A DNA stretch of 35,537 bases from a virus, in IMG/VR virus record IMGVR_UViG_3300040801_001642, positions 1 through 35,537 of that record. The stretch is one strand, 5' to 3'. The position numbers were made by a program, and so were the translations under genes. The notes beneath the pieces are model-generated. The model was not told the origin of the DNA. It did not search any database and saw only the letters and a program-made list of their open reading frames with translations. Numbering within the stretch: position 1 is the stretch's first letter; the number at the start of each line of letters is the position of its first letter. Below are positions 9,054-33,647 of this stretch, one piece after another.

Positions 9054-9054
9054 C

Positions 9055-9267
9055 ATGAGCGGTTTTTTCGGTGGTGGTGGTGGTGGCAACGCGGAGGCGG
9101 CCGAAGCGAACGCGGCGGCCCGGCGGCGCGAGCAGGAAGGCGGCGAGGACGAGATGCGCGCCCGCCAGCGCGGTGAGCGCGGATCCGGCGGTGGCCGTGG
9201 GCGTGGCCGCGATATGCTGGTCGGCCGGCTGAGCAAGGTGCTCCCGACGAACCTCGGCGGCGTGTGA
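9055..9267 (+). CDS. Gly/Arg-rich small protein (70 aa)
   Basis: ATG 9055 with GGAGGCG upstream, chosen over an earlier in-frame ATG at 9022 that lies inside the previous gene. The product is low complexity: a run of Gly (FFGGGGGG), an Ala/Glu helix, a second Gly/Arg-rich tract (RGSGGGRGRGR), and a short hydrophobic C-terminus. Proteins like this often sit directly before the portal gene in T7-like phages and may be minor virion or assembly proteins. Function not established. Confidence 0.55.
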   Translation: MSGFFGGGGGGNAEAAEANAAARRREQEGGEDEMRARQRGERGSGGGRGRGRDMLVGRLSKVLPTNLGGV

Positions 9268-9270
9268 TCC

Positions 9271-11216: not shown

Positions 11217-11595
11217 GGCTCAGCTCATCGAGGAGCTGCAGGACGCGGGAGCCCCGCTCGAAAAGGAAGTGCTCGAGCAGATGACCGTCAAGGAGCTGAC
11301 CGCGCTCATCGAGGGCGAGGGCGATGTTCCGGAGACGGCCGTCGCGACCGTGCGGCGCAAGGTCAATCGCGGATCCATCCGCCGGATCAACAAGGCGAGC
11401 GATACCTTCCGGGGCGCGCTCAAGGCGTTCGCCGAGGAGCTCGACCGGCAAGCGTGGGTCGAGGATGACCAAGGCTCCCGCGTCGGATCCGTCGCGCTGG
11501 TGCAGTATCTCCGGCAGTGCGAGGCCGACGTGAACGATGAGCTCAACAAGCTCCTCGGCTCGCCCGCCGCAAAGGATCCTTCCGCGATCGAATAA
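11203..11595 (+). CDS. Hypothetical protein of the head region (130 aa)
   Basis: Starts at ATG 11203, 14 bases inside the previous gene, with AGGAGAACAGG upstream. The first ~50 residues have a SAP/HeH-like helical pattern (KAQLIEELQDAGAPLEKEVL, then MTVKELTALIE) seen in DNA-binding and phage head proteins. The remainder is helical and acidic. No firm family. It lies between portal and scaffold genes, so an assembly or DNA-contact role is possible. Confidence 0.6.
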   Translation: MVKTKAQLIEELQDAGAPLEKEVLEQMTVKELTALIEGEGDVPETAVATVRRKVNRGSIRRINKASDTFRGALKAFAEELDRQAWVEDDQGSRVGSVALVQYLRQCEADVNDELNKLLGSPAAKDPSAIE

Positions 11596-11633
11596 CCAAT
11601 CCCGTCCACGCGTCACGAATGAAAGGAATACCC

Positions 11634-11888
11634 ATGACCAAAGGCGAATATCGCGTCGGCATCACGTTCAACCCGTCGGGCGACGATCGGGTGAGCGAGA
11701 TCAAGAGAATGGCCGCCGACCTCATCGACATGATCGAGGACATTCCCGCGCCGAATGCCGAGATCTCCCCCGAGCAGGATCGGCAGCGCGGCGAGGTGAT
11801 GCGGCTCAAGGCGCACGCTCAAACGCTCGTGGAAGATGCCGCGATGAATGCGGTTAAGGCAGCCACCAAGCGGCAGCCGGGAGAGTGA
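11634..11888 (+). CDS. Acb2/Tad1-like candidate anti-defence protein (84 aa)
   Basis: ATG 11634 with AAAGGA seven bases upstream, preferred over ATG 11619, which has no such site. The layout FNPSGDDRVSEIKRMAADLI and DMIED, a short linker, then RLKAHAQTLVEDAAMNAVKA and ATK follows what I remember of the Acb2/Tad1 hairpin domain: an NPS-V-IK-AADLID helix and a second helix ending E-AAMWAVKAATK. Those proteins sequester the cyclic nucleotides of CBASS and gcADPR of Thoeris. Here the usual Trp is Asn. Length fits. The position among head genes does not disprove this, since such genes are often found there. Without a search the assignment is tentative. Confidence 0.55.
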   Translation: MTKGEYRVGITFNPSGDDRVSEIKRMAADLIDMIEDIPAPNAEISPEQDRQRGEVMRLKAHAQTLVEDAAMNAVKAATKRQPGE

Positions 11889-11896
11889 GGTGAACC

Positions 11897-12910
11897 ATGC
11901 TCGTTAAATCCTATCTGCGCGGGTTTGATCCCCGCGCCTTCGAGAAACCGGGAGAGGGAGACGGCGGAGCTACGCCGCCGGATCCCGGGGTAAATCCCGG
12001 TCAGGGCGGAGAGGATCCACCGCCCGGGAGTGGAGGGCCGGGGGGCGAAGATCCCCCGCCCGCCAAGCCTTCCTCCATCCTCGACTTCGCCACCAAGGGT
12101 GAGGATCCCAACGCGCCGCGCGGGAAATTCGAGGTGCCCGATGGGCTCGAGATCCCCGATCATCTGGTCGGCGACGACGCCACGACCACGCTCTCGAAGG
12201 TGCTCAAGGCATATCAGGGCGCGCGGGCCGAGCTCTCGAAGGGTGGCCAGAAGCCCAGCGAGGCGATCGGGGAGATCCCCAAGGATCCCGCCGGTTACGA
12301 GATCACCTCCGAGGATCCCGAGGATCCCGTGTTCAAGGACATGACCTCGGAAGAGAGCAAGCCGATCATGGACGCGTGGCGCAAGGCGGCGAAGGAAGCC
12401 GGCCTCGGCACCAAGCAGTTCGATGCCTTCATGAAGATGGGGTATCAGAACATGATCGAGGGCGGGCTCAAGGTCGAGACCGATCCCGAGAAGGCGGCGC
12501 AGATCAACGGCGAGGCCGAGATGCAGAGCCTCGTGCAGGAGGTCGGCAAGGCCGAGGCTGACCAGATCCTCCGCCAGCTCGACACCTTCGCCGTAGGGCT
12601 GGCCAAGCGCGGCGTTCTCAGCTCGGAGGATGACGTGCAGGAATTCGGGCAGATGGTGGGCACCGCCCGCGCCGCCCGGATCATGCAACGGATCATCGTT
12701 GGCGAATTCGGCGAGAAGGCGATCCCGTCGAACACCGATGGCCCGGCCGGCACGCCCACCGTCGAGGAGGCATACGCCGCGAAGGATGCCGCGCTCCGGA
12801 TGCCGCCGGGATCCGATCGGGATCTCGCGGTGCAGCGCGCCGAGGAGATGATCGGCAAGGCGCTGCAGGAGGGTGGACAGACCGGGACGATCCGCTCTAG
12901 GGTTCTCTAG
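11897..12910 (+). CDS. Scaffolding protein
   Basis: 337 residues, acidic, directly upstream of the major capsid gene, as scaffold genes usually are. Residues ~15-60 are a Pro/Gly/Glu/Asp-rich disordered tract; the rest is mostly helical, with a central segment EAGLGTKQFDAFMKMGYQNM as in T7-like capsid assembly proteins, and a basic C-terminus (TGTIRSRVL) suited to contact with the capsid protein. ATG 11897 has GAGTGAGGTG upstream. It is followed by a strong terminator and then the capsid promoter. Confidence 0.75.
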   Translation: MLVKSYLRGFDPRAFEKPGEGDGGATPPDPGVNPGQGGEDPPPGSGGPGGEDPPPAKPSSILDFATKGEDPNAPRGKFEVPDGLEIPDHLVGDDATTTLSKVLKAYQGARAELSKGGQKPSEAIGEIPKDPAGYEITSEDPEDPVFKDMTSEESKPIMDAWRKAAKEAGLGTKQFDAFMKMGYQNMIEGGLKVETDPEKAAQINGEAEMQSLVQEVGKAEADQILRQLDTFAVGLAKRGVLSSEDDVQEFGQMVGTARAARIMQRIIVGEFGEKAIPSNTDGPAGTPTVEEAYAAKDAALRMPPGSDRDLAVQRAEEMIGKALQEGGQTGTIRSRVL

Positions 12911-12940
12911 TCTGGTTTCGATACTGCCAAGGAACACCTC

Positions 12941-12976
12941 GCCCGCCCGGATCCTCCCCCGGGCGGGCTTTTTCTT
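12941..12976 (+). terminator. Rho-independent terminator after the scaffold gene
   Basis: Perfect 10-base GC stem GCCCGCCCGG / CCGGGCGGGC with an eight-base loop, followed by TTTTTCTT. This is the strongest terminator in the window, 30 bases after the scaffold stop. Its T-run touches the -35 box of the capsid promoter. Confidence 0.88.
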
Positions 12977-13002
12977 GACAGCCCGGCGCGCTCCCGTATG
13001 TT
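12975..13002 (+). promoter_or_regulatory. Strong sigma70 promoter for the major capsid gene
   Basis: Consensus TTGACA at 12975-12980, a 16-base spacer, and TATGTT at 12997-13002. Transcripts would have a leader of roughly 105 bases before the capsid ATG at 13118. It lies immediately behind a terminator, so capsid expression is insulated from the upstream operon and set separately. Confidence 0.8.
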
Positions 13003-13117
13003 CTGTGCGCAGATGCAGACCCGCGAAGGATCGGCACCCGGGGCGCAAGCCATCTAGGCCCGGATCCCTTCAAGGCCCTCGATCTATCCCGATTGAAACC
13101 TTGAATGGAGATGGCCA

Positions 13118-15020: not shown

Positions 15021-17777
15021 ATGCCGACGGCGCGCCAGACGAATTCTACCTTCGCCTCCGGTGAGTTCGATCCGCTCCTCTCCGATCGCGAGGACGTGGC
15101 GTTCTTTTACTCAAGCGCCAAGCGGATCGAGAACGGGATCGTGCTTCCGCAAGGCGGCATCAAGCGGCGCGAAGGGATGCGCCGGGCAGGCAAGCAGCGC
15201 GGCCCGATCACGGCCGTGGATATTTCAGGATACACCTTCGGAGCTCCGAACGGAGGCACGGCCGCGAACCTCGACAGCGAGACCGCATCCGACAACGTGA
15301 CGACAACCGGGGAGATCAACACCGCCACCGAGTATGTCGTGGCCACGATCGACGCCGGATCCGCGCAGCGCGTGAGTATGGCCGACATCACGCCTCGGCT
15401 CATCGGCGGCACGATCGCCACCGGCACCCTCGCGCTGCAGTCGAGCGACGACGACGTGACCTATACCACGCGCGCCTCGATCCTCATCGGCACGTCATCG
15501 TTCACGCGGCGGTTCGCCACCGCGCCCGACACGGATCTCGGCACCCATCGGTATTGGCGGCTCGCCTTCCTCAATCCCGACGGCGACGACTACGGCACGG
15601 ATGAGGTCGAGGTCTACGGGTTCAAGATGTGGACCGAGGCGGGCAAGTCGCAAAGCGGCGCGGTGCCCGGGGCGGTGCGGAAAGAGCGGATCACCGCGAC
15701 ACCCACCTCGGAGTTCTGGTGCGTCATGACAGCCGGGAACGCGGACATCTGGTCGGCGGATGGCGTGTGGAAGGCGGCCGTCCCGATCCCGCACGCGGAG
15801 GCGGATGTGCCGTGGATCCGCACCTCGCAGAACCGCGACAGCCTGCTCCTCTACCAGATCGAAAACCCGGTGCACCAGATCCAGCGCCTCGAGAACGATG
15901 ACAGCCAATGGCGCGCGGATCCGTTCGTGTTCTCCACCGTGTCGCAATTCCCCTTCCCGGATGCCACGACAGGCGGGCAGAACGAGCAGCAGGAGCTCAA
16001 TTTCCAGAGCATGACCGCCGGCAACCGTTTCGTTTTCGAGCTGAACGGCGACATCTCCGATGAGGTGGCGTGGAGCGCAACCGCCGCCACGAACATCACG
16101 AACATCACCGCCGCGCTCGAGGGGATGGAGGACATCACCTCGGTGACGGTCACGAACCCGACGGGCACCTCCTACCTCATCGAATTCGACGGCGACGACG
16201 CCAACACGTTCTTCCCGATCCTCATCGTGGATATCCTCGATGGATCTGGCATCGTGACCAATTCCCGGAAGCAATACGGCCGACCGAACCAAGAAGATCT
16301 CTGGTCGCCGACGCGCGGCTATCCAGCGTGCGGAACCTTCTATCAGGGCGGGCATTGGATGGGCGGCTTCAAGGCCGTTCCCGACGTGGTGGCCAGATCC
16401 CGGGCCGGTGACTTCACCGACTTCAAGGGAGATCAGGATCCGGTCGCGACCTCGCCGCTCGTGCTGCAGCCCGACATCGATGATCTGGTGGAGATCCGCG
16501 CGATCTATCCCGGCCGCTCGCTGCAGATCTTCACGAGCTCGGTGGAGCTCTACGCTCCGGATGAGCCGATCACGCCCGACAATGCCGCGCTCAAGGTCAC
16601 GTCGCGGCGTGGCCACCAGAGCCGCACGCAGCCGGTGGATGTGCAGGGCGGCACGTTTTTCGTGGATCGCAACGGCACCGCGCTGCGGGAGTATCTCTTC
16701 TCGGAGAGCGAGCAGAGCTACACCGCCGAGCCGATCTCCACGCTGGGCGGCCATCTCGTGGCGCAGCCGGTCGATATGGCGCTGCGCCGCTCGGTCGATA
16801 CCGATGAGCCGACGATCGTCTATCTCGTGAACCAAGGCCGCGACCGGAATTTCGAGAAGGTGCCGGGCGCCGCGCTCACGGTGGACCGGGCGCAACAGAT
16901 CTCGGCCATGGCGCGGATCACCACGCGCTTGGGAGATCTCGAGGCCGTATCGGCAAGCCAAGGCGGCGACGTGGCGTTCATGGTCAACCGCCGGCTGGCC
17001 GGCAACGCTTGGAATTACCTCGAGGTGCTGGACGAGAACCACATGGGGGATCACTCGGTCGAGGTGGCAAACCCGGATCTCGAGACCTTCACCGCCACCG
17101 CCGCGCAAACGGTTTTCACCTACACGTTCACGAACCCAACCGACGAGATCGACATCGGAGTGTTCACCCGCGAAGGGCCGCTCGACTTGTGGCGCAGGGT
17201 CGAGCCTGACCTCTACACCCTCGACACCGGGGCAAAGACGATCACCTTCGACACCGGGCTCGATGCCGGGAAGGTGGTCGCGATCGCGCCGCGCCAGACG
17301 AGCTTTACCGTGGGCCACGCGGATCTCGACGGGATCGAGTGTTACCTTCACGTTGACGGCCGCGCCACGGGGGCGCACACGCCGGCCTCCGGGAGCGTCA
17401 CGATCCTCGGCGATGAAGGGTTCTGGTTCCAAGCGCGGCTCGGCCTGCGCATGGTGCCGCGCATCGTGCTGCAGGCGTTCAAGGGGCAGGGCGGGCAGTC
17501 GCCGACGATGCAGAAGCAGCGGATCTTCCGGGCTCTCATCAACCTCGAGCGGACATCGAACCTCGCGATCGGCCTCGAGGGCGAGGACGCCAAGGCGGTG
17601 TCACTGGCCAGCCTCGACAGCGGGCGGTATGACGCGGACCTCGAGGAGACGCTCTACTCGGGGCAAGTGCGGATCTCAGGTTTCAAGGGGTGGAAGATCG
17701 AGCCGCGCATCGTCATCACCCAATCCGAGCCGGGGCCGTTCTCGATGGTCGCGTCTCGATATGATATCCGGTTCTAG
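15021..17777 (+). CDS. Tail nozzle (tail tubular protein B-like), 918 aa
   Basis: Large beta-rich protein following the adaptor gene, as T7 gp12 follows gp11. The opening TNSTFASGEFDPLLSDREDV and FYSSAKRIENGIVLPQGGIK are typical of the family, as are the later YPACGTFYQGGHWMGGFKAV and the C-terminal EGEDAKAVSLASLDSGRYDA-type region. It is longer than T7 gp12. About residues 90-205 look like an inserted discoidin-type beta sandwich (ATGTLALQSSDDDVTYTTRA, then THRYWRLAFLNPDGDDYGTD, ending EVEVYGF), which may bind sugars at the tail tip. A second inserted domain lies near residues 325-405. Confidence 0.82.
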   Translation: MPTARQTNSTFASGEFDPLLSDREDVAFFYSSAKRIENGIVLPQGGIKRREGMRRAGKQRGPITAVDISGYTFGAPNGGTAANLDSETASDNVTTTGEINTATEYVVATIDAGSAQRVSMADITPRLIGGTIATGTLALQSSDDDVTYTTRASILIGTSSFTRRFATAPDTDLGTHRYWRLAFLNPDGDDYGTDEVEVYGFKMWTEAGKSQSGAVPGAVRKERITATPTSEFWCVMTAGNADIWSADGVWKAAVPIPHAEADVPWIRTSQNRDSLLLYQIENPVHQIQRLENDDSQWRADPFVFSTVSQFPFPDATTGGQNEQQELNFQSMTAGNRFVFELNGDISDEVAWSATAATNITNITAALEGMEDITSVTVTNPTGTSYLIEFDGDDANTFFPILIVDILDGSGIVTNSRKQYGRPNQEDLWSPTRGYPACGTFYQGGHWMGGFKAVPDVVARSRAGDFTDFKGDQDPVATSPLVLQPDIDDLVEIRAIYPGRSLQIFTSSVELYAPDEPITPDNAALKVTSRRGHQSRTQPVDVQGGTFFVDRNGTALREYLFSESEQSYTAEPISTLGGHLVAQPVDMALRRSVDTDEPTIVYLVNQGRDRNFEKVPGAALTVDRAQQISAMARITTRLGDLEAVSASQGGDVAFMVNRRLAGNAWNYLEVLDENHMGDHSVEVANPDLETFTATAAQTVFTYTFTNPTDEIDIGVFTREGPLDLWRRVEPDLYTLDTGAKTITFDTGLDAGKVVAIAPRQTSFTVGHADLDGIECYLHVDGRATGAHTPASGSVTILGDEGFWFQARLGLRMVPRIVLQAFKGQGGQSPTMQKQRIFRALINLERTSNLAIGLEGEDAKAVSLASLDSGRYDADLEETLYSGQVRISGFKGWKIEPRIVITQSEPGPFSMVASRYDIRF

Positions 17778-17789
17778 GAGGGCGGGAGC

Positions 17790-18371
17790 ATGGCATCTGC
17801 ATTCATGGCGATCACCAGCGCCCTCGGAGGGGGCGGAGCTGCAGCGGCAGGCGCCGGCGCGGCCACGGCGGCCTCGAGCATGTTCGCGGGCGGATCTGCG
17901 GCGGCCACGGCGGCGACCACGGCAGCAGCGGGCGGCGGCTTCGCATCCACCCTCACGACGGTTCTCTCGATCGGATCCGCGCTGGCCTCGATCGCGCAGG
18001 GGAACGCGCAGGCATCCGCGCTCAAGGAGCAGGCGACGCAGGTCGCGGTGCAGGACAGCCAAAGCCGCGCCTCCGACGCGCAGAAGCGCGCCTCGCTGGC
18101 CGAGGAATACGCGGACATGACCTCGGAGCAGGCGGCGGTGCAGCTCGCCAACGGGCTCAACCCGGGCGTTGGCACGCCGGCCACGATCCGGGAGGCCACC
18201 ACGAAATTCGCTGAGCGGAACCTCTCGGTGAGCCGCGAGAACACAAAGAACCGATCGACCGTCGCGCGGCTGCAGCAGCGTTCCCTCATGAAGCAGGCGA
18301 GCAGCGCGCGCATGGGCGGCTTCCTCGGCGCGATCGGATCCTTCGGTCGCCTCTACAGCGCGGTGGGCTAA
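17790..18371 (+). CDS. Internal virion protein B-like (193 aa)
   Basis: Occupies the place of T7 gp14. The first ~75 residues are a long Ala/Gly-rich hydrophobic stretch (MASAFMAITSALGGGGAAAA and onwards) that could insert in the outer membrane on ejection; the rest is a charged coiled-coil region (QAQASALKEQ-type, QSRASDAQKRASLAEEYADM). It ends with a small hydrophobic segment. ATG 17790 has GGAGGGCGGGAG upstream. It abuts the next ejection gene. Confidence 0.7.
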   Translation: MASAFMAITSALGGGGAAAAGAGAATAASSMFAGGSAAATAATTAAAGGGFASTLTTVLSIGSALASIAQGNAQASALKEQATQVAVQDSQSRASDAQKRASLAEEYADMTSEQAAVQLANGLNPGVGTPATIREATTKFAERNLSVSRENTKNRSTVARLQQRSLMKQASSARMGGFLGAIGSFGRLYSAVG

Positions 18372-20909
18372 ATGGCAGGACGCAGAAACTACGGGGCACG
18401 GGTTCGCCGGTATAGCCGGCACCAGCGCGTTCTCACCGAGGTGCAGCCCAGCTACACGCCGGAGAGCGCGGCGACGGCGCAGATGTGGGGCCAGATCAAG
18501 TCGGGCCTCGAGGACGGGATCTCGTTCCTCCGCCCGGCCGTGGAGCAGGAGCAGACCGTGCGCGGCGAGCGCGAGGCTCTCGAGGCATACGAGAGCGGAT
18601 CCTTCGAGATGCGCTCGCCGCTCACCCTGCGAAGCCGGGCGTTCAACACCACGGGCGAGCGGCTCATCACGAACCGCGCGATGCAGCGTTTCGAGGAGGG
18701 GCTGCGCGATGTGCAGTCGCGGTCTACCTCGGTCAGCTCGGTGCAGTCGAACCTGCAGGAATTCATGGGGCAGTTCTTCGAGGAGATGCCCGACATCCCC
18801 GGCCTGCGCACGCGGTTCGTTTCGCAATTCGAGCGGGCCGAGGCGTCCATGGTGCGCGCCGCAACGCAGCGTGCCGTCGCCGCAGCGAACGCCTCGCGCC
18901 GCCGGGCCGTCACGGAAACCCGTGAGCTCATCGAGGCCGAGGCCGAGCGCACGGCTCTGACCGCCGGAACGGAGGGCGAGGTGGCCGAGGTCATCACGCA
19001 AGGGATCGAGCTGCTCGCGGCCGATGGCCCGCCCGAAGCCTTTGAGGCCGCCGGCGTCATGTTCCCCCCGGATCCGAACCGCTCCGGGATCCTCCGCGCC
19101 GAGCAGATCAACAGCTCCGCAACCGAGATGCGCCAGAACGCGGAGGAGGTATTCCTTCGCGCGCAGATCCTCCAATCCGACACCCCGATGCTTCTGGCCC
19201 GGGCCTATGAGGAGGAGGTGTTCTCCGGCAACGCGGATCTTCCGCCAGAGCAGTCGCTCCGCCTTCTGGGATCCCTGCGATCGACGGCACGCCAGCGCGA
19301 AAGCGAACGGCTCGCGGCCGAGCGGCAGGTCGAGACGCAGCTCGCCGAAGCGGCGAACGAGGAGCTCAATCCCTACATCGTCGCGGCCGAGAACGGCGTC
19401 CCGCAGGCGATGCCGCAAGCCGACCGGGCGGCGCTCCTCGAGAGCGTCTCCGGCAACCCGACGCTGCTCGGTCAGGTCGAGACGCAGCTCGAGATTGCCG
19501 ACGCGGTGGTCACGCTCCACGGCATGAGCCCGCAAGAGCAGATCAACTTCATCGAGGAGCAGCTCGCCGCCTTCGAGGCGACGCCGGGTGTCGATCGCCG
19601 TGAGGCCGCGCTCATCTCGGAGCTGGCGCCACGGCTGCAGGCGCTCCGCCGCGCGATCGATGAGGAGCAGGTCGGCCTCGATGCCGCCGAGGTCGCGGTC
19701 AATTCCGGCGCGCTGCTCGATGAGGAGCAGATGGCGGAGCTCGCCTCGCGCGTCGCGGGCTACCCCGAGCTGCAGGCGGCATACGACACGATCGAGGCGG
19801 CGCAGGACTACATCACCGGCACCGAGGCGCTCACCGGCGCCCAGCGCGAGCAGCAGTTCAACGCCATCGAGGACGCGCTCACCACGCTCTCGATCGAGGG
19901 CGGCCGTGTCGGCGCCGCAGCAGCTCGGCAGCTCGACGCGCTCGAGGGCGCCCGGTCGCCCTCCCCCGCGCTCACGGCTCTCGCGGCGACTGACGCGGCC
20001 CGCTTCGCGTCGCGCGTCGGCGTGGAGCTCGAGCCCTTCCCGGAAGAGGCAAGCCTCATGGATGTGGGCGCCACCGTGGCCACCCGCATCGCGCAGATCC
20101 AGCCGCAGACGCAGCGCCTCGGCGTCGATTACCCGGTGCCGATCACACAGTCGGAGCTCGAGGCCATCTCCGACATGTTCCAAGGGGCGAACAACGCGAG
20201 CCGCGTGGCCTTCCTGCAGGGCTTCGCGGACATGCCGGCACCGCAGCGCGAGCGGATCTTCTCGGCGCTCGGGCAGGATAACCCGCAGATCCTCGCGGCC
20301 GCGCGGGTTTCGACCACGGCGCCGGCCGCCTCGAGGGCCATCCTCGCCGGCACCGGATCCACGCTCAACGCCACGCCCACCGTGGTCTCGACGGTCGAGG
20401 CGCAGGCGATGGCGCCGATCATGCAAGCCGGGATCCTGCCACCCGCCGAGCTCGACACGGTGCGCACCACGGCGCTGCAATACGCGCGCGGCATGGCGGT
20501 GCGGCAAGGTCTCACGGAGATCTCCCCGGCGGATCTCGAGCGCGGCTATGATCTGGCGCTCGGGGCGAATGACGAGGGGGTCGGTGGCATCGAGCCCGTG
20601 GCGCGGCGCGGCTTCCTTGGCGGCCGTGACTTCGGCGTTACGATCCTGCCCACCGGCGTGTCCGGTGAGGAGGTGGCGATGGCCCTCGAGAGCCTCACGG
20701 TGGAGCGGCTCACCGAGCTGACCGGCGGCCGGATCCTCGATGGCTTCGAAAACGAATACAACCTCGAGCGCTTCACCCGGCAGATCGCCGGCTTGCGCCC
20801 GGTCGCCGAGGGCGTCTACGCTCTGACAGACGCGCAGGGCGGTGTGTTCCGCACGCCCGACGGCGAGAACCCGGTGCTTCTCATCCGCCTCGAGGATCTT
20901 CTGCAATGA
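18372..20909 (+). CDS. Internal virion protein C-like ejection protein (845 aa)
   Basis: Corresponds in place and size to T7 gp15. The start MAGRRNYGARVRRYSRHQRV is basic and short; the body is a long helical array rich in Ala/Glu/Gln (for example ERAEASMVRAATQRAVAAAN), as in core proteins that form the periplasmic tube. The C-terminal ~130 residues are more compact (GFLGGRDFGVTILPTGVSGE). No lytic transglycosylase motif is visible. ATG follows the previous stop directly and the stop overlaps the next start by four bases. Confidence 0.72.
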   Translation: MAGRRNYGARVRRYSRHQRVLTEVQPSYTPESAATAQMWGQIKSGLEDGISFLRPAVEQEQTVRGEREALEAYESGSFEMRSPLTLRSRAFNTTGERLITNRAMQRFEEGLRDVQSRSTSVSSVQSNLQEFMGQFFEEMPDIPGLRTRFVSQFERAEASMVRAATQRAVAAANASRRRAVTETRELIEAEAERTALTAGTEGEVAEVITQGIELLAADGPPEAFEAAGVMFPPDPNRSGILRAEQINSSATEMRQNAEEVFLRAQILQSDTPMLLARAYEEEVFSGNADLPPEQSLRLLGSLRSTARQRESERLAAERQVETQLAEAANEELNPYIVAAENGVPQAMPQADRAALLESVSGNPTLLGQVETQLEIADAVVTLHGMSPQEQINFIEEQLAAFEATPGVDRREAALISELAPRLQALRRAIDEEQVGLDAAEVAVNSGALLDEEQMAELASRVAGYPELQAAYDTIEAAQDYITGTEALTGAQREQQFNAIEDALTTLSIEGGRVGAAAARQLDALEGARSPSPALTALAATDAARFASRVGVELEPFPEEASLMDVGATVATRIAQIQPQTQRLGVDYPVPITQSELEAISDMFQGANNASRVAFLQGFADMPAPQRERIFSALGQDNPQILAAARVSTTAPAASRAILAGTGSTLNATPTVVSTVEAQAMAPIMQAGILPPAELDTVRTTALQYARGMAVRQGLTEISPADLERGYDLALGANDEGVGGIEPVARRGFLGGRDFGVTILPTGVSGEEVAMALESLTVERLTELTGGRILDGFENEYNLERFTRQIAGLRPVAEGVYALTDAQGGVFRTPDGENPVLLIRLEDLLQ

Positions 20910-23900
20910 CCGGATCCGTCGGCCTCAACTTCACCCCGCTCGAGCCTGACGTTGCCGTCGCTCCCGGATCCGCGATCGGTGAGCGCGTCGGCTTCGGCGA
21001 GGCCGTCGGTGCCGGGTTCCGCAGCGCCTCGGAGCTGGGCTTCCGGCGGGATGATGCGCGCCGCCGCGAGGCGTATGGGATCTACATGGACCCGATCGAC
21101 CGGGCAATTCAGGGCCACATCGATCTCCCGGATCCGATCATGCGCACGGTGGCGGAGGAGGGGTTCGATCCAAGCCTCGAGACGCTGGGGCGGATCCGCT
21201 CGTGGGTCGAGGAGAACGGCGCGCAGTATGGATACGATCCCGAGGAGTTCGACCCTCCCGAGGATGTGATCGCCCGGCGTGAGGAGATCCTCTCCGATGC
21301 AGCGGCATTCGTGGATGAACAGAACGAGATCCTCGGCCGCGCTGGCCCGGGCACCGCGCTTGCCGGCCAGCTCATCGGTGGCGTCGGCGCCGAGTTCACG
21401 GACCCGTTCAACGTGCTCACCCTGCCCGCCGGTGCGCCGGCCCGGGCGGGCCTGCTCGCCACGATGGGGGTCGAGGCCGCGATCAATGCCGGCCTCGAGC
21501 TCGCAGAGCTGGGCGCGCGCAACCGCTTTGCCGAGGAGCTGGGGCAGGAGACGCAAAGCCCGCTCGAGGCCGCGACGATCGGCGCGCTCTTCGGTGCCGG
21601 CGGTGCGGCGGCCATGCGTGGCCTCGAGGTCGGGACGATCCGGGGCTTCGAGCGCATCGGCCGGTTTCTCTCGCAGCGTGAGCTCCGCGCGCTCGCCGAA
21701 GCGGCGGCCGGGAGCGCCAATCCATCCGAGGCCGCGCTCGGGAACGCGCTCCTGCAGGATCTCGCGGAAGCCGGGCAGGTAGGCGCGAACACCTCGCGGG
21801 CCGCCGAGGAAGAGCATCAGCGCCGCCTCGCGGAGGCTACGGCCGCCCTTAACGAGGGCCGGGCGGTGAGTATGCCCGACCAGCCGGCGACACTCAGGCC
21901 GCGCCCAGACGAGCCCGGCGGCGCCCTCGAGATGGCCGACACCCGGGATATCCAGATCGACACCGGCCGAAGCGACGCGCCCCAGCGGATCAACGAGCCC
22001 TTCGATCCCGATCGCGCCGGCGTCGCCATGATCTTCGAGGCCGAGGATGGAACCCGCACGCTCGTGGATGGGCGGGCCCGGCTCGATGCCGCGCGCGAGG
22101 CCGGGATCGATGCGCTCCCGTCGCGGATCTATCGCGAGGCCGATGGCTTCCGGATCGAGGATCTCCGGCGGGTTCTCGATGAGATGGACGGCGCCGAGCG
22201 CGAATTCCTGCCCGCCACCCTCCGGGCCTATAACGCCATGTCCGATGACGCGTTCAACGTCATGGCCATGGGCGGCGTGGATGCCGGCGTGGCGATGGTG
22301 GTCGCGCGCCAGATGGAGAGCAGCCCGGAGCTGCAGTTCGCCATGATCCGCGCTCTGCAGCGTGCCGGCATCAACACGCCGGAGGGCGCGCTCCGCGCCA
22401 TGCCGGAGCTCTCGCGGGGGCTCGAGCCGATCGTGCCGGAGGCCGACTACACCGCGCGCCAGAAGGTGACAGCGCGGGCGATGGACGGCATCCTCGAGGA
22501 CGATGAGCTCCTCACCGCCCTGCGCGAGCAGCGTGCCGCCGTGCGCGGCGAGCCGGCCGGCGCGGGATCCGCAGCAGAGGACGCGATCCTCGCCGATGAG
22601 CTGCGCTCCCGGGTGATGGAGAACATGGGGCGCAACCCCGCATTGGAGAGGGCGATCAATGCTGCAGCGAAACACTATGCCGCCACCGGCCGACTTGGGG
22701 ATGGTGCCGGAAGGCTCCTTTCTGAGCTCCGAGGTCTCACCAGATCAGGCGCGCTCGATCGCGCAGGAGACAGCCTTCCTCGAGCAGATGCGGAACCTCA
22801 AGGCCCGGCTGCACCGGCACAGGACGGGAATGAGAGGTTCTCCGACCCGATCGACGGTGAGGGAGCAGCCGGACAGGTAGCCGCAACCCCGCTCGTGCGG
22901 GATCCTCCGCCGGAGGGCTTCTCGGATGACCTCGCCGGCCGCGAGGATCTCAAGCGCCGCGTCGAGGATGGCGCGCCGCGCGAGGAGATCGACACGCACC
23001 CGGCGCTTGTGCGGGCTCTCGAGGAGATGGAGGCCCGCGCCGAGCAGGCCACGGATCTCGCCGAGGTCTACGGCACCCGGGAGTGGCACGACAGCCGTCA
23101 GTATGTTTTCGGATCCGAGGTCGAGAGCGGCACCCGGGCGGCAATCCCGCGCTGGCGTGATGAGGCCGAGAGCTTCGCCGGTGAGATGGGCCCGCTTCGG
23201 GAGCGCGAGGTCACGATCCTCCTCGGCCCGCCGGCCGCCGGCAAGAGCACGATCGCCGAGGGGCTGGCGCTCGATCGCCGGGCCGCCATCCTCGATCCCG
23301 ATGAGATCAAGAAAACGCTCCCGGAATACGAGGGCGGCATCGGCGCGGCGGCCGTGCATGAGGAGAGCTCCGATCTGGCCAAGATGCTCGAGGGCGTCAT
23401 GCGCGAGGAAGGAACGAACATGATCGTTCCCAAGGTCGGCGGATCCCCGGGCAGCATTCGCGCCATGGCCCAGCGCTTCCAAGAGAGCGGCTACCGGGTT
23501 TCGATCGTCAACATGGCGGTGTCACCCGACGAGGCATACATCAGGATGATCGGGCGCTTCATCGGCACCGGCCGGATCATCCCGCCGAAATACATGGACG
23601 CGGTGGGCGACAACCCGACGCGCACCTATCAGACACTCAGGGATGAAGGAGCTGCGGATGGCTTCGCGGAAATCGACAATAACGGGGGCTTCAACGCGCC
23701 AAAGCCCATCACCGAGCGCGTCGGAGAATTCGACCCGTTCGCAGGATCCCGCTTCGATCTGGGCGCGGGCAGAGGAAGCCTACTCGAAGCCGCTAACGGC
23801 GGAGCAGGAGCAGGTGATCGCGGGGCTGGCGCGGCCGACATCATCCGGCGAGACGCCCTAGTCGATCGCGTGCCGATCGGCGTGGAGCAGATCGACCGAT

Positions 23901-23998
23901 CGACCACACGCGCGACAACGATGACGCGGCAGGAGCTCGAGGACGAGCTCGTGGCCGAGGAGACGTTCGCCGAAGTGCTGCAGTATTGCGTGAGGTAG
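20906..23998 (+). CDS. Polyvalent ejection protein with ParB-like and zeta-toxin-like domains (1030 aa)
   Basis: Lies between gp15-like and gp16-like genes and is probably carried in the virion. The N-terminal ~270 residues have ejection-protein features, including hydrophobic stretches (TALAGQLIGGVGAEF, then GALFGAGGAAAMRGLE). Residues ~365-430 resemble a ParB N-terminal domain (AEDGTRTLVDGRARLDAARE). Residues ~770-905 match zeta-toxin kinases: VTILLGPPAAGKSTIAEGLA with Walker A G774-S781, then ILDPDEIKKTLPEY, MLEGVMREEGTNMIVPKVGG, and the PDEAYIRMIGRFIGTGRIIP basic segment. Zeta toxins phosphorylate UDP-GlcNAc or related substrates. Near 22690-22830 and 23755-23850 the G/C third-position bias moves to the +1 frame, suggesting compensated frameshifts or sequence errors. 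The stop is three bases before the next gene. Confidence 0.72.
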   Translation: MTGSVGLNFTPLEPDVAVAPGSAIGERVGFGEAVGAGFRSASELGFRRDDARRREAYGIYMDPIDRAIQGHIDLPDPIMRTVAEEGFDPSLETLGRIRSWVEENGAQYGYDPEEFDPPEDVIARREEILSDAAAFVDEQNEILGRAGPGTALAGQLIGGVGAEFTDPFNVLTLPAGAPARAGLLATMGVEAAINAGLELAELGARNRFAEELGQETQSPLEAATIGALFGAGGAAAMRGLEVGTIRGFERIGRFLSQRELRALAEAAAGSANPSEAALGNALLQDLAEAGQVGANTSRAAEEEHQRRLAEATAALNEGRAVSMPDQPATLRPRPDEPGGALEMADTRDIQIDTGRSDAPQRINEPFDPDRAGVAMIFEAEDGTRTLVDGRARLDAAREAGIDALPSRIYREADGFRIEDLRRVLDEMDGAEREFLPATLRAYNAMSDDAFNVMAMGGVDAGVAMVVARQMESSPELQFAMIRALQRAGINTPEGALRAMPELSRGLEPIVPEADYTARQKVTARAMDGILEDDELLTALREQRAAVRGEPAGAGSAAEDAILADELRSRVMENMGRNPALERAINAAAKHYAATGRLGDGAGRLLSELRGLTRSGALDRAGDSLPRADAEPQGPAAPAQDGNERFSDPIDGEGAAGQVAATPLVRDPPPEGFSDDLAGREDLKRRVEDGAPREEIDTHPALVRALEEMEARAEQATDLAEVYGTREWHDSRQYVFGSEVESGTRAAIPRWRDEAESFAGEMGPLREREVTILLGPPAAGKSTIAEGLALDRRAAILDPDEIKKTLPEYEGGIGAAAVHEESSDLAKMLEGVMREEGTNMIVPKVGGSPGSIRAMAQRFQESGYRVSIVNMAVSPDEAYIRMIGRFIGTGRIIPPKYMDAVGDNPTRTYQTLRDEGAADGFAEIDNNGGFNAPKPITERVGEFDPFAGSRFDLGAGRGSLLEAANGGAGAGDRGAGAADIIRRDALVDRVPIGVEQIDRSTTRATTMTRQELEDELVAEETFAEVLQYCVR

Positions 23999-24001: not shown

Positions 24002-26512
24002 ATGGGTTTCAAGGACTGTCTCAATCGCGGCATTGCCGACGGATCCATGCCACGCGCGCGGGCCGAGGAGATCGTGCGGCAATACGAGGCGCATTTCAGC
24101 GAGCTCGAGATGGAGATGGGCCCGACGCAGGCCGACTATGAAGCAGCGCGTCGTGTCGTCATGGCAGCTCGAGCGGCCGCGAAAGAACGCCGCCGGGTGG
24201 CCCAGCTCCAAGCCGATGCGGCCCAGCGACAGGCGCAGCGGTTGCAGGCGTGGACGAACATCTATGGCAACGAGGATCCCGGCGACGCGGTGCAGGCGAT
24301 CCTTTCCCGGCGGCGCGGCGCCCGGGGCCAGACGGTCGAGGGGCTCTATGAGAGCGTGCGGCGCAGCTACCGACGCGAGATGACCGACGCGATCGTCGCC
24401 TTCCGCGCCCGGCTCACCGGCCAGCGCCGCAACAAGGACACCCTCAACAACGTGGTGCGCGAGCTCTTCGGTGAGGGCACCGGCGACGCCATGGCGCGCG
24501 GCATCGCGGAGAGCTTCTCGACGGTGGCCGAGAAGGCCCGCACCCGGTTCAACGCGGCCGGCGGGCACATCGGCAAGCTCGAGCGCTGGTCCCTGCCCCA
24601 GACGCACGACAGCTCCAAGATCCGCCGCGTGGGGCGCGATGAGTGGACGGCATACATCGATCGGCTTCTCGATTGGGACGCCATGGCGGTGAGCCATAAC
24701 AACGGCGTGAGGTTCACTCAGGCCGAGAAGCGCTCGATCCTTGAGCAGAGCTATCAGGACATCCGGACCAACGGTTATTCCAAGACCGAGCCCGGCGTGC
24801 GTCGCGGCTCGGCGAAGTATAACCAGCGCGCGGATCATCGGTTCTTCCAATTCCGCGACGCGTCGGCTTGGCAGGAATACAACGCGAAATTCGGATCCGG
24901 CCGCGACGCGTTCCGGGTGATGCTCGGCCACCTCGACAGCATGGCCAGCGACATCGCGCAGATGGAAATGCTCGGCCCGAACCCGAACCACGGCTTCGCC
25001 TACCTCAAGGATGTGGCGATGGATCTGGCGCAGCGCTCCCGGGATCCGAAGGCGCCGGCCCGGGCGGAGCAGCGGCTCAAGCAAGCTGACCGCATGTTCG
25101 ATATGCTCAACGGCGTGACGAACATCCCGGAGAACGAGCGCGTGGCGCGCGGGTTCTCGGCTCTGCGATCGAGCCTCACGGCCGCGCACCTCGGCTCGGC
25201 GGTCATCTCCTCGGTCACGGACTTCAACACGAACCGGCTGGCCGCCTCTTTCGTGGGCATGAACCAAGCCGGCTTTCTCCGCCAGATGCGCCGGCTGGTG
25301 TCGAGCAAGGACTTCCGCGAGGACGCGAACCGGCTGGGCCTCATCTTCGAGAACGCGGTCGATCAAGGCAACGCGGTCGCGCGATACGAGCTCGAGAACG
25401 TCCATGTCGAGTGGGCCTCGCGCGCGGCCGACTTCACGATCCGCGCCTCGGGGCTGGGCTACCTGACCGAGATCCAGCGCCAGAGCTTCGGTCTCGAGTT
25501 CATGAGCACGATGGCCTCGAAGTGGCGGAGCTCGAGCTGGGAAGAGCTCGGCACCACGGGCACGGGCTGGCGCCGCACGATGGACAAGCGGTTCAAGCGC
25601 GCGATGGAGGATTACGGCTGGGACGCTGAGGCATGGGAAGCGCTCCGCGCGGCCGGCACCTACAGGCTCAAGAACGGGCTCGAGGTGGTGCGGGCGCAGG
25701 ACATCGAGGCGGCCGGCAGTCAGCGCGTCGCGGATCTCTACATGGAGACGATCTCGCAGATGACCGAGTTTGCCGTTCCCTCGAGCGACACGCACGGCCG
25801 CGCGCTTGTGCTCAACGGGACGCAGCCGGGATCCCTCGGCGGCGAGCTCATCCGGGCCGGCCTGCAGTTCAAGGCGTTCCCGATCACGATGATGACAACG
25901 CAGATCTCGCGCGTCATGGCCGAGTGGAACGCCGGCAGGAAGGCGAACGCGGTGGGCTACGGCGCGAGCCTCGTGATCGGATCCACCATGCTCGGCGCCG
26001 TGGCGCTATGGCTCAAGGATATCGTGGCCGGCCGGGATCCGCGCAACGCGGCGACACCGAAATTCTGGGCGGCGGCGATCGCGCAGGGCGGCGGGTTTGG
26101 TCTCTTCGGCGACTTCTTTTTCTCCGACGTGAACCGCTTTGGCGGCGGCGTGGGATCCAGCCTCGGCGGCCCGCTCACCGGGTTCTTCGATGACTTCGGC
26201 AAGCTCACGATCGGGAATGTGCAGGAGGTGCTGCAGGGCGAAACGCTGGCCGAGGCGAACGCGGGCCGCGAGGCGGTGCGGTTCCTCGAGCGGTATACAC
26301 CGGGCAGCTCTCTATGGTATGCCCGGCTTGCGCTCGAGCGGGAGATCTTTGATCGCTTGCAACGTGTCGTGGATCCGAACGCGTCCAGATCCTTCGGCTC
26401 GCAGAACCGCTACCCCGACGACATCGGGACGCAGTTCTTCGCACCCCCCGGCGAGCGCATCGGAGATGCTCGCTTGCCTGACCTCGGCAACATCATCGAA
26501 AGGCGCGAATAA
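24002..26512 (+). CDS. Internal virion protein D-like ejection protein (836 aa)
   Basis: Third large ejection protein, in the place of T7 gp16 but without a recognisable N-terminal transglycosylase. It has a coiled-coil N-terminal third (EEIVRQYEAHFSELEMEMGP, and later VMAARAAAKERRRVAQLQAD). The middle and C-terminal parts resemble the conserved end of gp16-type proteins: HHRFFQFRDA-type (here ADHRFFQFRDASAWQEYNAK), LGHLDSMASDIAQMEMLGPN, LTAAHLGSAVISSVTDFNTN and GGELIRAGLQFKAFPITMMT. Near residue 655 a hydrophobic segment (YGASLVIGSTMLGAVALWL) may cross the inner membrane. The stop overlaps the fibre start (TAATG). Confidence 0.72.
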   Translation: MGFKDCLNRGIADGSMPRARAEEIVRQYEAHFSELEMEMGPTQADYEAARRVVMAARAAAKERRRVAQLQADAAQRQAQRLQAWTNIYGNEDPGDAVQAILSRRRGARGQTVEGLYESVRRSYRREMTDAIVAFRARLTGQRRNKDTLNNVVRELFGEGTGDAMARGIAESFSTVAEKARTRFNAAGGHIGKLERWSLPQTHDSSKIRRVGRDEWTAYIDRLLDWDAMAVSHNNGVRFTQAEKRSILEQSYQDIRTNGYSKTEPGVRRGSAKYNQRADHRFFQFRDASAWQEYNAKFGSGRDAFRVMLGHLDSMASDIAQMEMLGPNPNHGFAYLKDVAMDLAQRSRDPKAPARAEQRLKQADRMFDMLNGVTNIPENERVARGFSALRSSLTAAHLGSAVISSVTDFNTNRLAASFVGMNQAGFLRQMRRLVSSKDFREDANRLGLIFENAVDQGNAVARYELENVHVEWASRAADFTIRASGLGYLTEIQRQSFGLEFMSTMASKWRSSSWEELGTTGTGWRRTMDKRFKRAMEDYGWDAEAWEALRAAGTYRLKNGLEVVRAQDIEAAGSQRVADLYMETISQMTEFAVPSSDTHGRALVLNGTQPGSLGGELIRAGLQFKAFPITMMTTQISRVMAEWNAGRKANAVGYGASLVIGSTMLGAVALWLKDIVAGRDPRNAATPKFWAAAIAQGGGFGLFGDFFFSDVNRFGGGVGSSLGGPLTGFFDDFGKLTIGNVQEVLQGETLAEANAGREAVRFLERYTPGSSLWYARLALEREIFDRLQRVVDPNASRSFGSQNRYPDDIGTQFFAPPGERIGDARLPDLGNIIERRE

Positions 26513-29066: not shown

Positions 29067-29530
29067 GTAAGAGAGCAGCCGAGGGCGTGGCGTCTTTTCT
29101 CGGGGTTCTCACCGTGCTCCTGCTCGGTGTCGTGATCTACCTGCAGGCCACAATCAACCGCACGCCGCCGATCTCGGCCTTCACCTCGACGGAGGTCATC
29201 AACGAGGATTGTTGCGTTGTGCCGGGCGGGACGCTCTTCGTGCGGATCTACCGCGAGAAGCTCCGCGATGACTGCTCGGTCACGAGCCTGCGCTCGGCCG
29301 TCGCGCTGGACAACGGGAACAACGGCCGCGCCTACCAGCTCCCGCCCTCGATCGACATGGCCGGCGGCCCGACCGATCAGAGCTATTTCGACCAAGGCTA
29401 CCCGATGCCCGCATGGCTCTCCCCGGGTGAGTATCTCCTGCGGGTGCATCTGATTTACGATTGCCATGGGATGGTGTTTCACTATGACCAGCCCGACACC
29501 CCTTTCACGATCACGGAGGCGCGAGGGTGA
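29063..29530 (+). CDS. Membrane-anchored hypothetical protein (155 aa)
   Basis: ATG 29063 lies in the overlap with the previous gene. Residues ~8-29 are a strong N-terminal anchor (VASFLGVLTVLLLGVVIYLQ). The remainder should be periplasmic, beta-rich and with four cysteines (EDCCVVPGG, DDCSV, YDCHG) that may form disulphides. It stands between the holin-like and amidase genes, so a role in lysis or in superinfection exclusion is possible. No family recognised. Confidence 0.65.
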   Translation: MSKRAAEGVASFLGVLTVLLLGVVIYLQATINRTPPISAFTSTEVINEDCCVVPGGTLFVRIYREKLRDDCSVTSLRSAVALDNGNNGRAYQLPPSIDMAGGPTDQSYFDQGYPMPAWLSPGEYLLRVHLIYDCHGMVFHYDQPDTPFTITEARG

Positions 29531-30153
29531 TGAAGCGGATCATCATGCACTGGACGGCAGGCGGGCATACCGCCAACGCGACGGACAAGCGACATTATCA
29601 CTTCATCGTGGATCTCGACCCGAACGGGAAGCCGCGCGTCGTCGCCGGGAACCAGCCCGTCGAGGCGAACGAGCGGATCGCGAAGCCGAACGACGGCGAC
29701 ACCTACGCCGCGCACACCCGGGGCACGAACACCGGATCGATCGGCGTGGCCGTGGCCGGGATGAGGAGCGCGCGCGAGCGCCCGTTCTCGGCCGGGCCCA
29801 GCCCGATGACCGAGGGGCAGATCGATTTGCTGGTCGCGTTCGTCGCGGATCTCGCGAAGCAATACGGGATCCCGGTCACGCCCTCCACGGTGCTGACCCA
29901 TGCGGAGGTCGAGCCGACGCTCGGCATCAAGCAGCGCAACAAGTGGGACATCATGTGGCTTCCGGGCATGAACGCGACGCAGGATCCCATCCAGATCGGG
30001 AACATCCTCCGCGCGCGCATCAAGGCCGCGCAGGCCGGCCGACCCACCGCCGGCGTGATCGACCCATCGAAACCCTTGGGGGCGCCCAGCGTCGCCGTGG
30101 TGATCGGTGTGATCCTTGCGGCGGTCGCCGCGTTCTTCGGCTTCGGAGGCTGA
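29530..30153 (+). CDS. Endolysin: N-acetylmuramoyl-L-alanine amidase (Amidase_2) with C-terminal membrane segment
   Basis: Cuts the amide bond between MurNAc and L-Ala of peptidoglycan. The first ~150 residues are an Amidase_2 domain with probable zinc ligands H7 (IIMHWTAGG), H124 (VLTHAEVEP) and D140 (NKWDIMW); the YHFIVD strand and the GSIGVAVAG strand are also typical. Residues ~187-206 (PSVAVVIGVILAAVAAFFGF) are hydrophobic, so the enzyme is probably tail-anchored, an unusual topology since SAR endolysins have the anchor at the N-terminus. I chose ATG 29530; GTG 29527 directly before it is possible. It overlaps the previous stop. Confidence 0.85.
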   Translation: MKRIIMHWTAGGHTANATDKRHYHFIVDLDPNGKPRVVAGNQPVEANERIAKPNDGDTYAAHTRGTNTGSIGVAVAGMRSARERPFSAGPSPMTEGQIDLLVAFVADLAKQYGIPVTPSTVLTHAEVEPTLGIKQRNKWDIMWLPGMNATQDPIQIGNILRARIKAAQAGRPTAGVIDPSKPLGAPSVAVVIGVILAAVAAFFGFGG

Positions 30154-32441: not shown

Positions 32442-33647
32442 TTAGCGGGGATCCTCGACGCTATCGAGCCAGTAATCCGAGAAATCCGCATCCTCGATAT
32501 CGCCCATCATGTCGCGCGGGAACCACGGTTCACCGGGGAGATACTGCTCGAGGCTCTCGCGGTAGAGCTGCAGGCATGAGCGCACCTCGAGGTCAGCCTT
32601 GCGGCACATCGCGCTGGCGACCTTCTGGAACCCGTCGGTGCTGGCGCCGATCTCTTGCTCGCGGATCCCGGGCGGGAGCGAAAACCAGCGGATCCGGCGC
32701 GCCCTGATATCCGGCACACCGCCACGGCGCAGGAAGAGGAAGAACGTCTCCCGGCCGCCACCGTGCTCGCTCATGTGCGTGGCCAGCACGCCGGCCTCGG
32801 GCGCCTCGATATCGGTGATCTTCATGGGGGATCCGTCGCGCGTGTGGCGCACCGTGAGATCCTGCTCGCGGATCGATCGCATCCCCAGCTCATAGAACCA
32901 GCCGGTGCGATAGTATCCATTGAACCGGAAGGCGTCGGCAACCGCTTGGTTCCCGGTCTTGCCGGCCGATCGCGTATCCCAAGTCTTGAGGTGGGTCACG
33001 AACCCGGCGCCGATGTAGTCGGGCCGGATCTTGCAGGGCACACCGTCGAGCGTGAACAGGATTGTGACCTCGGCGAGCCCGTCCTCGATGAGGCTGGCCA
33101 CCTCCGGGTTGGCGCGCAGCCGGGCGGCGTCGCGCTGAATTTCGTCGAACGTCTTGGGGTCGATCGCCGCTCGGCCGTCGCGGCCTCTGGCGGCGTCGAA
33201 CGCGGCGCGCTCGAGGGGCCAGATCACCGGGAGCTCCGACATCGGCTTGTCGATCTCGGTCGCGTAGACGGTGCGCAAGCGCTCGGCCTGCTCGAGGACG
33301 GTCTCGCCAGACTTCTTTTTCGTGTGGCCCATGTTCGCGAGGGCCTCGCCGATATCGGTTCCGTTCATGAGGATCGTGCGGCCCTTGTAATCCTCGGCCG
33401 TCACGTCGCGGACAAAGCGACGGGGGAATTCCTCGGGCTCGAGGCGGGCGCAGTGGTAGGCGCTCCCGTGGAGCATGGCCTTGCTCGGCTCTTCCTCCTC
33501 GCGATCGGGGTTGAGCCATGAGCGCGCCCAGAACGCGGAGGGGCCCTCCATCATATCGGTGAGCCCGCCGGCGCTCATGCGCTCGAGCTCGAGATACTGG
33601 TCGAAAGGCATGTCGAGGTAGATGCCATCGGGCAGGTGTTTGGTCAT
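32442..33647 (-). CDS. RecE/exonuclease VIII-like nuclease (DUF3799)
   Basis: 401 residues, PD-(D/E)xK superfamily exonuclease that resects double-strand ends for ERF. Landmarks: GIYLDMPFDQYLELERMSAG at the N-terminus, MLHGSAYHCARLEPEEFPRR (the usual G-A-H...EPE-F signature), RANPEVASLIEDGLAEVTIL, and the metal-site Asp in CKIRPDYIGAGFV. The following motif, normally DLKT, is HLKT here, a D-to-H change at a catalytic position. The C-terminal region YLPGEPWFPRDMMGDI is less typical. Start ATG 33647 has AGAGGA upstream and overlaps the previous stop. Confidence 0.8.
   Translation of the reverse strand: MTKHLPDGIYLDMPFDQYLELERMSAGGLTDMMEGPSAFWARSWLNPDREEEEPSKAMLHGSAYHCARLEPEEFPRRFVRDVTAEDYKGRTILMNGTDIGEALANMGHTKKKSGETVLEQAERLRTVYATEIDKPMSELPVIWPLERAAFDAARGRDGRAAIDPKTFDEIQRDAARLRANPEVASLIEDGLAEVTILFTLDGVPCKIRPDYIGAGFVTHLKTWDTRSAGKTGNQAVADAFRFNGYYRTGWFYELGMRSIREQDLTVRHTRDGSPMKITDIEAPEAGVLATHMSEHGGGRETFFLFLRRGGVPDIRARRIRWFSLPPGIREQEIGASTDGFQKVASAMCRKADLEVRSCLQLYRESLEQYLPGEPWFPRDMMGDIEDADFSDYWLDSVEDPR

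Follow-up and report, generated by a model that had tools for sequence, protein, structure and literature searches.

The DNA analyzed here (the window) is a virus record of 35,537 bases, IMG/VR record IMGVR_UViG_3300040801_001642. The gene in question is an open reading frame (ORF) at 20906-23998 on the plus strand, which begins with ATG and encodes a 1,030-residue protein carrying a zeta-superfamily kinase domain near its C-terminus. The gene sits within a predicted podophage ejection cassette, and in some related phages the segment of the protein that holds the kinase (the slot) is absent or filled by a different enzyme. The features of the locus, with comparisons to Dunaliella viridis virus SI2, are given below.

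17790-18371, plus strand: small internal virion protein of 193 residues, no cysteine (phrog_418, E 3.1e-10).
18372-20909, plus strand: second ejection-cassette gene, 845 residues, no cysteine, with a 4-nucleotide overlap with the kinase-bearing gene; function assigned by synteny only.
20906-23998, plus strand: predicted third ejection-cassette gene, 1,030 residues, comprising a helical scaffold, a ParB-like domain, exchangeable kinase cargo and a C-terminal tag (ORF, synteny and alignments).
21923-22420, plus strand: ParB/Noc-like domain and the helices that follow it, about residues 340-505 (Foldseek and alignment A5; limits approximate, parts of the model of low confidence).
22931-23857, plus strand: exchangeable cargo cassette, residues 676-984, with no counterpart in the SI2 homologue (global alignment; exchange between near-identical phages).
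23210-23686, plus strand: zeta-superfamily kinase core, residues 769-927 (PF06414 Zeta_toxin, E 3.3e-18).
23225-23248, plus strand: Walker A motif GPPAAGKS, residues 774-781, in which K780 corresponds to zeta K46 (lysine in 51 of 51 relatives).
23300-23302, plus strand: predicted catalytic base D799, corresponding to zeta D67 (aspartate in 51 of 51 relatives).
23858-23995, plus strand: conserved C-terminal tag, residues 985-1030 (identity with SI2 in 22 of 46 columns; kept behind both cargo types).
23987-23989, plus strand: Cys1028, the sole cysteine of the 1,030-residue protein (one cysteine in 88 of 88 slot proteins).
24002-26512, plus strand: next ejection-cassette gene, 836 residues, virion structural protein (phrog_684, E 1.7e-160).
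24017-24019, plus strand: Cys6, the sole cysteine of the 836-residue phrog_684 protein (one cysteine in 82 of 90 homologues).

Along the window a portal-type adaptor (9271) is followed by the major head protein (13118), tail proteins (14364 and 15021) and the internal virion protein (17790), then by the 845-residue protein, the kinase-bearing protein, the phrog_684 protein (24002) and a tail-fibre-like protein. Gene order is the same in phage SI2 and comparable in epsilon15 gp12-gp17; this synteny, together with phrog_418 and phrog_684 within the cassette, places the gene at the position of a podophage ejection protein. Its product is probably the third ejection (internal virion) protein of a podophage related to epsilon15 and SI2, with packaging and ejection predicted from gene context. 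The initial annotation had put the gene between two ejection-protein genes. The downstream gene encodes the phrog_684 virion structural protein; the upstream 845-residue protein matched no family in Pfam or PHROGs and was assigned to the cassette from its synteny with SI2 and epsilon15. Both neighbors are virion-cassette genes (the downstream gap is 3 nucleotides), and no small antitoxin-like gene lies between the kinase gene and these direct neighbors, the rest of the window not having been scanned with antitoxin profiles.

The same annotation had read a zeta-toxin-like kinase in this product from three motifs, GPPAAGKS, DPDEIKKTLPEY and PDEAYIRMIGRFIGTGR. All three are present, and the stretch it singled out (23210-23650) corresponds to residues 769-915. 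PF06414 scored 66.3 bits on the kinase against a cut-off of 22.3. However, this family is unspecific, as it has matches in 14 of 14 control genomes; a PF06414 match was therefore rejected as sufficient evidence by itself, and profile comparison and predicted structure were used instead. When an alignment of the window kinase domain and three phage relatives (A1) was compared as a profile with the PDB, the best matches were zeta 1gvn (5.8e-18) and PezT (1.5e-13), with AvrRxo1 at 5e-9. Plain sequence comparison with the PDB was uninformative (P-loop noise, with PezT at 0.22). A kinase structure predicted from alignment A4, which holds 17 window and locus sequences, had a mean predicted local distance difference test (pLDDT) value of 83.5. 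In Foldseek zeta or PezT occupied ranks 1-8 with no others among them, and the VIA-align Z scores were 17.1 to both 1gvn and 3q8x (root-mean-square deviation 2.7, 199 residues aligned), 15.9 to PezT, 14.4-14.7 to AvrRxo1 and 14.1-14.3 to bacterial polynucleotide kinase. From Pfam, profile and predicted structure, the domain is a zeta-superfamily P-loop kinase.

The last of these structures raises another possibility. Phage T4 Pnk repairs host RNA cut by anticodon-nuclease defense, and the window kinase might likewise be a polynucleotide or tRNA kinase preloaded in the virion for such repair. Bacterial polynucleotide kinase 4gp7 (Z 14.3) would agree with this, as would phrog_505 (polynucleotide kinase), which matches the window at 0.006 and the relative L097 (L numbers denote viral contigs and loci) at 6.4e-7. 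However, zeta and AvrRxo1 give matches that are both better and longer, and the protein has no ligase or phosphatase domain match in Pfam or PHROGs, so that we rate a repair kinase as rather unlikely.

A ParB-like segment ahead of the kinase had also been proposed, and this too was borne out. Although the segment has no Pfam match in the window protein itself, Pfam ddrB-ParB matches the slot protein in two relatives, L015 and L180. The backbone model was weak (mean pLDDT 56.8) and for this reason only its ParB-like part was used; in Foldseek the first 15 rows of this low-confidence model were ParB, Noc or KorB (E 0.008-0.026, probability 0.99-1.00). T7 core proteins first appeared at row 24 (E 1.4), which is no test of the fold. 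Four positions of the ParB-like domain (G382, D388, G389 and R392) are invariant in alignment A5. The protein thus combines two unrelated effector-type domains, a ParB-like domain and a zeta kinase (in L180 Pfam itself gives ddrB-ParB and Zeta_toxin), and at least two such domains define a polyvalent protein, the class named in the initial annotation. The polyvalent proteins of phages and conjugative elements treated by Iyer et al. 2017 are multi-domain products in late-gene context that pair ParB-like with effector domains, as in the window protein; zeta-like and RelA/SpoT domains are listed, and zeta was proposed to weaken the wall (PMC5512222). In contrast to the present case, that paper ties zeta to MuF fusions and conjugative elements, and its main text gives no match for the terms 'internal virion', 'gp16', 'epsilon15' or 'cysteine'.

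The position of the kinase within the protein was defined by comparison with the SI2 homologue, DVVG_00008, which is 30.3% identical over residues 78-679. The global alignment continues on both flanks of the kinase, with 22 identities in the last 46 columns, whereas SI2 lacks residues 676-984. The kinase is therefore an insertion between the scaffold and the C-terminal tag. There is a parallel to such a tag in T7 gp16, in which the last five residues are required for infectivity (PMC8954989).

The whole 1,030-residue protein used as a single query found no relative among the viral contigs, but relatives did come from scans of these contigs with kinase alignment A1 and with an alignment of the phrog_684 protein (A2). 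The best 80 of 312 relatives found with A2 were used. Seventy-seven of these loci have an adjacent upstream protein, and these together with the proteins of ten earlier loci and SI2 make up the 88 slot proteins considered here (392-1,873 residues for the complete ones; the other four are truncated at the 5' side). The other three loci and L009, which was read separately, gave no adjacent slot protein in this survey and stand outside the 88. The zeta profile matched 26 of the 88 proteins, a second cargo profile matched 43, none matched both and 19 matched neither. As A2 was built mainly from kinase-bearing loci, these proportions are no census. The second cargo profile (alignment A3, 24 members) gave Tas1 6ox6 in the PDB at E 1.2e-21 followed by GTP pyrophosphokinase 3l9d at 7.5e-4, and so falls by profile with Tas1 and RelA/SpoT as a candidate (p)ppApp synthetase. 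Pfam RelA/SpoT had no match in the eight proteins scanned, seven of which are A3 members.

Near-identical phages exchange these cargoes. Up to residue 718 the slot proteins of L097 (kinase) and L104 (Tas1-like) show 98.1% identity; they are dissimilar over residues 719-1026 and have the tag in common from residue 1027. At the DNA level L106 and L100 match at 97.6% and 95.9% identity as far as 7875, differ for the next 976 nucleotides and return to 98.7% identity over 8852-13044; apart from extra bases in the L100 scaffold, no further exchange is seen in this stretch. Over three pairs (L097/L104, L106/L105 and L106/L100) the DNA flanking the cassette is 92-99% identical and the exchanged stretch is about 950 nucleotides. 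No neighbor gene was co-exchanged in these three comparisons (distant genes were outside their view); the stretch holds the cargo alone, and therefore no immunity gene travels with the cargo in the compared stretch. Zeta modules that precede phrog_684 are 36-57% identical to that of the window, and the scaffolds are about 21-26% identical where they can be aligned. The comparisons indicate that the kinase is a removable cargo in the slot of an ejection-cassette protein, swapped for a predicted Tas1-like RelA/SpoT domain.

The exchanges bear on two further explanations. The MuF polymorphic toxins of temperate phages (Apk2 and Bxa) follow the same logic of a constant, capsid-targeting part and a variable C-terminal enzyme, (p)ppApp synthetases included (PMC12226406 and PMC11699363), and the window protein could be a toxin of this kind directed against competing bacteria or phages with its immunity encoded elsewhere. 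However, immunity genes come after MuF toxins (PMC11699363), whereas here the cassette changes without any neighbor gene. The window protein also differs in having a conserved tag behind the cargo and no MuF domain match (Pfam up to E 1; PHROGs); the match of phrog_16619, a 'minor head protein', is restricted to the kinase. We consider a MuF-like toxin improbable. The second explanation is mechanical: the P-loop would help draw DNA in or let the ejectosome refold, and any activity on a metabolite would be secondary. The domain is housed in a predicted protein of the DNA-translocation machinery, and in T7 the C-terminal part of gp16 is believed to enter the cytoplasm and act as a ratchet on the DNA (PMC8954989). 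As SI2 and other phages do without the kinase and 43 relatives have an unrelated enzyme at the same place, such a role seems very improbable.

Zeta residues were mapped onto the window protein through the alignment of the A1 profile with the PDB, with residue numbers counted by hand from the printed alignment. The equivalents of zeta K46, D67 and K70 are identical in 51 of 51 kinase relatives, and those of R158 and R171 are kept in 50 (one gap each). The lid arginines of the window, R884 and R890, are likewise present in 50 of 51 relatives with one gap each. Within the kinase family itself E807, H818 and E820 are invariant (51 relatives). On these residues the kinase is catalytically complete and, in our view, probably active.

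The acceptor site is another matter. Zeta contacts its substrate UDP-N-acetylglucosamine (UDP-GlcNAc, also UNAG) through E100 (2'-OH of the ribose), T118 (beta-phosphate), R120 (phosphates) and T128 (uracil), and the T118V substitution renders PezT non-toxic (PMC3062530). At these positions the window has K826, V844, G846 and M854; all four contacts are changed. Among the 51 relatives E100 is conserved as E in 11, T118 as T in 8, R120 as R in 3 and T128 as T in 7. The initial annotation had suggested a UDP-sugar kinase that could halt cell-wall synthesis, and this suggestion is left unsupported because all four contacts differ, the T118V change among them. An authentic UDP-GlcNAc 3'-kinase like PezT would at entry block peptidoglycan synthesis or soften the wall for injection, which would be in keeping with the nearest solved structures (zeta 3q8x/1gvn and PezT) and with the wall hydrolases found in other slot proteins (pesticin-type lysozyme in L006 and L007, GH108 in L008 and SLT in L015). 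Against this stand the changed contacts and the nature of the alternative cargo, which is a nucleotide enzyme rather than a wall enzyme. We therefore regard it as unlikely.

Thus, with the zeta and PezT kinases (PF06414; PDB 1gvn, 3q8x and 2p5t) the window kinase shares the fold, P-loop, catalytic aspartate and lid arginines, but it differs in its UNAG contacts, in lying near the C-terminus of a virion-cassette protein and in the lack of a small antitoxin-like gene between it and its direct neighbors. AvrRxo1 (PDB 4z8q series), an injected plant effector and the second-nearest fold among solved structures, offers a precedent: it retains the ATP residues but not the UNAG residues, and it phosphorylates nicotinamide adenine dinucleotide (NAD) rather than UDP-GlcNAc to give 3'-NADP (PMC5087710). 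It shows 18-20% identity to the window kinase, with which it has an HxESS motif in common in the alignment. Unlike the window kinase, AvrRxo1 is a type III effector with a partner protein and has no phage carrier. We think that UDP-GlcNAc is not the acceptor of the window kinase and that another acceptor is likelier; NAD or another nucleotide would be a guess by analogy with this nearest relative.

The strongest pattern seen lies outside the original question and concerns cysteine. All 88 slot proteins have exactly one cysteine, at most 10 residues from the C-terminus and third from the end in 74. After redundancy removal (84 complete proteins) this held in 57 of 57 clusters at 90% identity, 40 of 40 at 70% and 26 of 26 at 50%. 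In a control set of other long forward ORFs from the same loci (mechanical ORFs, spurious frames included) only 3 of 308 have a cysteine within the last 12 residues. The phrog_684 proteins have one cysteine near the N-terminus in 82 of 90 cases and two cysteines in the other 8, and the second cassette protein is free of cysteine in 80 of 81. The pair of cysteines is kept in epsilon15 (gp16 C629 of 634 and gp17 C5 of 918), in Pelagibacter phages Skadi-7 and HTVC100P and in Acinetobacter phage 4316. The junction between the genes does not account for the pair, because ZCVPP1 keeps it although its two genes are non-adjacent.

The slot proteins have 0.97 cysteines per 1,000 residues, all from the tip, versus 2.03 in tail tube B proteins, and several cysteines are found in portals and T7 tail tubes. 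The main ejection proteins of three other phages, T7 gp15 and gp16, P22 gp7, gp20 and gp16, and N4 gp50 (3,500 residues), gp51 and gp52, have none. Note that the retained head proteins N4 gp56 and gp57 and the T7 scaffold gp9 are also cysteine-free, and thus absence of cysteine alone is no proof of ejection. Cassette position and near-absence of cysteine are common to the window protein and the podophage ejection proteins T7 gp16, P22 gp16 and epsilon15 gp16 (in the last, C629 is the only cysteine), whereas a kinase near the C-terminus is not known in those. We take the cysteine pattern to support ejection, indirectly. As one reading, the scarcity of cysteine fits selection against disulfides in proteins that thread the tail and periplasm. 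The reserved thiols, one at the C-terminus of the slot protein and one near the N-terminus of the phrog_684 protein, suggest that the two could be joined tail to head.

Taken together, these data favor, with moderate confidence, a third ejection protein with an exchangeable slot that would deliver a catalytically complete zeta-superfamily kinase to the cytoplasm, where it would act on a nucleotide-type acceptor. The carrier would be a helical, ParB-bearing scaffold with a conserved C-terminal tag and an effector slot just before the tag, and it would be packed into the head and leave it together with the DNA. Once in the cytoplasm, the kinase would use ATP to phosphorylate a small acceptor of the nucleotide type; NAD or some other adenine or uridine nucleotide is more probable in this role than UDP-GlcNAc. 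Host nucleotide metabolism or signaling would be shifted in this way at entry, ahead of any phage gene expression. The Tas1-like RelA/SpoT domain that forms the alternative cargo would draw on the same pool of nucleotides. A carrier purged of cysteine but for its tip would fit passage through a narrow tail and an oxidizing periplasm, and suggests that interchangeable effectors share one means of delivery.

Several observations weigh against this interpretation. As E100 is kept in 11 of 51 relatives and T118 in 8 of 51, part of the family may bind UDP-sugars, and NAD is suggested solely by the similarity to AvrRxo1. As for cysteine, the slot protein L183:5015-8515 (a Roseococcus contig) has its only cysteine at position 71, none at the C-terminus, and a different ending; perhaps its start is misassigned, a frameshift is present or the prophage has decayed. 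Two cysteines occur in epsilon15 gp15 and in the corresponding SPN1S protein, and T7 gp14 and epsilon15 gp14 each have one, at position 2. Moreover, the domain is cysteine-free in 56 of 78 zeta relatives of other contexts, and so a cysteine-free domain alone is no proof of ejection.

A broader scheme is put forward more tentatively, and we think it possible rather than probable. Podophages of the epsilon15/SI2 kind would eject a dedicated carrier, free of cysteine but for its tip, into which enzymes directed at nucleotides (a zeta-type kinase or a Tas1-like alarmone synthetase) plug at a single site. In the periplasm the C-terminal cysteine of this carrier would become disulfide- or thiol-linked to the one at the N-terminus of the ejected protein that follows, and proteins that exit a podovirus head would in general be marked by having almost no cysteine.

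Zeta kinases in polyvalent proteins have already been published. The podophage slot, the cargo exchange and the cysteine pair look new within the literature searched, in which we found no description of them in ejection proteins (subscription journals were mostly outside its coverage). The set of proteins that phages inject, and the way in which cargo is marked for injection, form a largely open field, and here the slot is defined by natural experiments, near-identical phages that differ in the enzyme alone. The carrier, tag and tip cysteine are testable in the cultured model epsilon15 (gp16 C629 and gp17 C5). If low cysteine is indeed a general mark of ejected proteins, injected effectors could be looked for in metagenomes by a simple test on sequence. 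The probable target of zeta kinases in virions shifts from the cell wall toward nucleotides, which are the currency of many anti-phage defenses.

Related kinases were also seen in other settings. They occur in slot proteins beside the phrog_684 gene on the alphaproteobacterial contigs L180 and L182, and fused behind a portal protein in L028:5080-7401 and L054:5862-8600 (Phage_portal_3, E 5.5e-98 and 9e-82). Giant kinase-bearing proteins of 2,666-5,270 residues (some cut by contig ends) with zero cysteine are present in L045, L052, L055, L061, L064, L066, L071 and L090; that of L061 also has LPD38. Bacterial genomes hold zeta relatives of about 300 residues as well.

Other slot proteins carry wall hydrolases. 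Those of L006:5691-10004 and L007:5733-10004, of about 1,430 residues, have the pesticin-type lysozyme at the start and, by eye, a candidate RelA/SpoT-like stretch. The hydrolase lies mid-protein in L008:3549-6728 (GH108 muramidase), L011:3510-6176 (transglycosylase-like) and L015:3246-6095 (SLT plus ddrB-ParB).

The phage closest to the window, L002 (NC_023841), has the green alga Dunaliella filed as host and no bacterial host on record, yet it has a tailed-phage genome. In the window itself an antisense ORF of 1,076 residues at 17676-20906 on the minus strand, opposite the ejection genes, is probably a by-product of base composition. Elsewhere in the window are an endolysin gene at 29527-30153 on the plus strand (phrog_5867, E 1.6e-38) and an Exonuclease VIII-like gene at 32442-33647 on the minus strand (phrog_412, E 1.3e-31).

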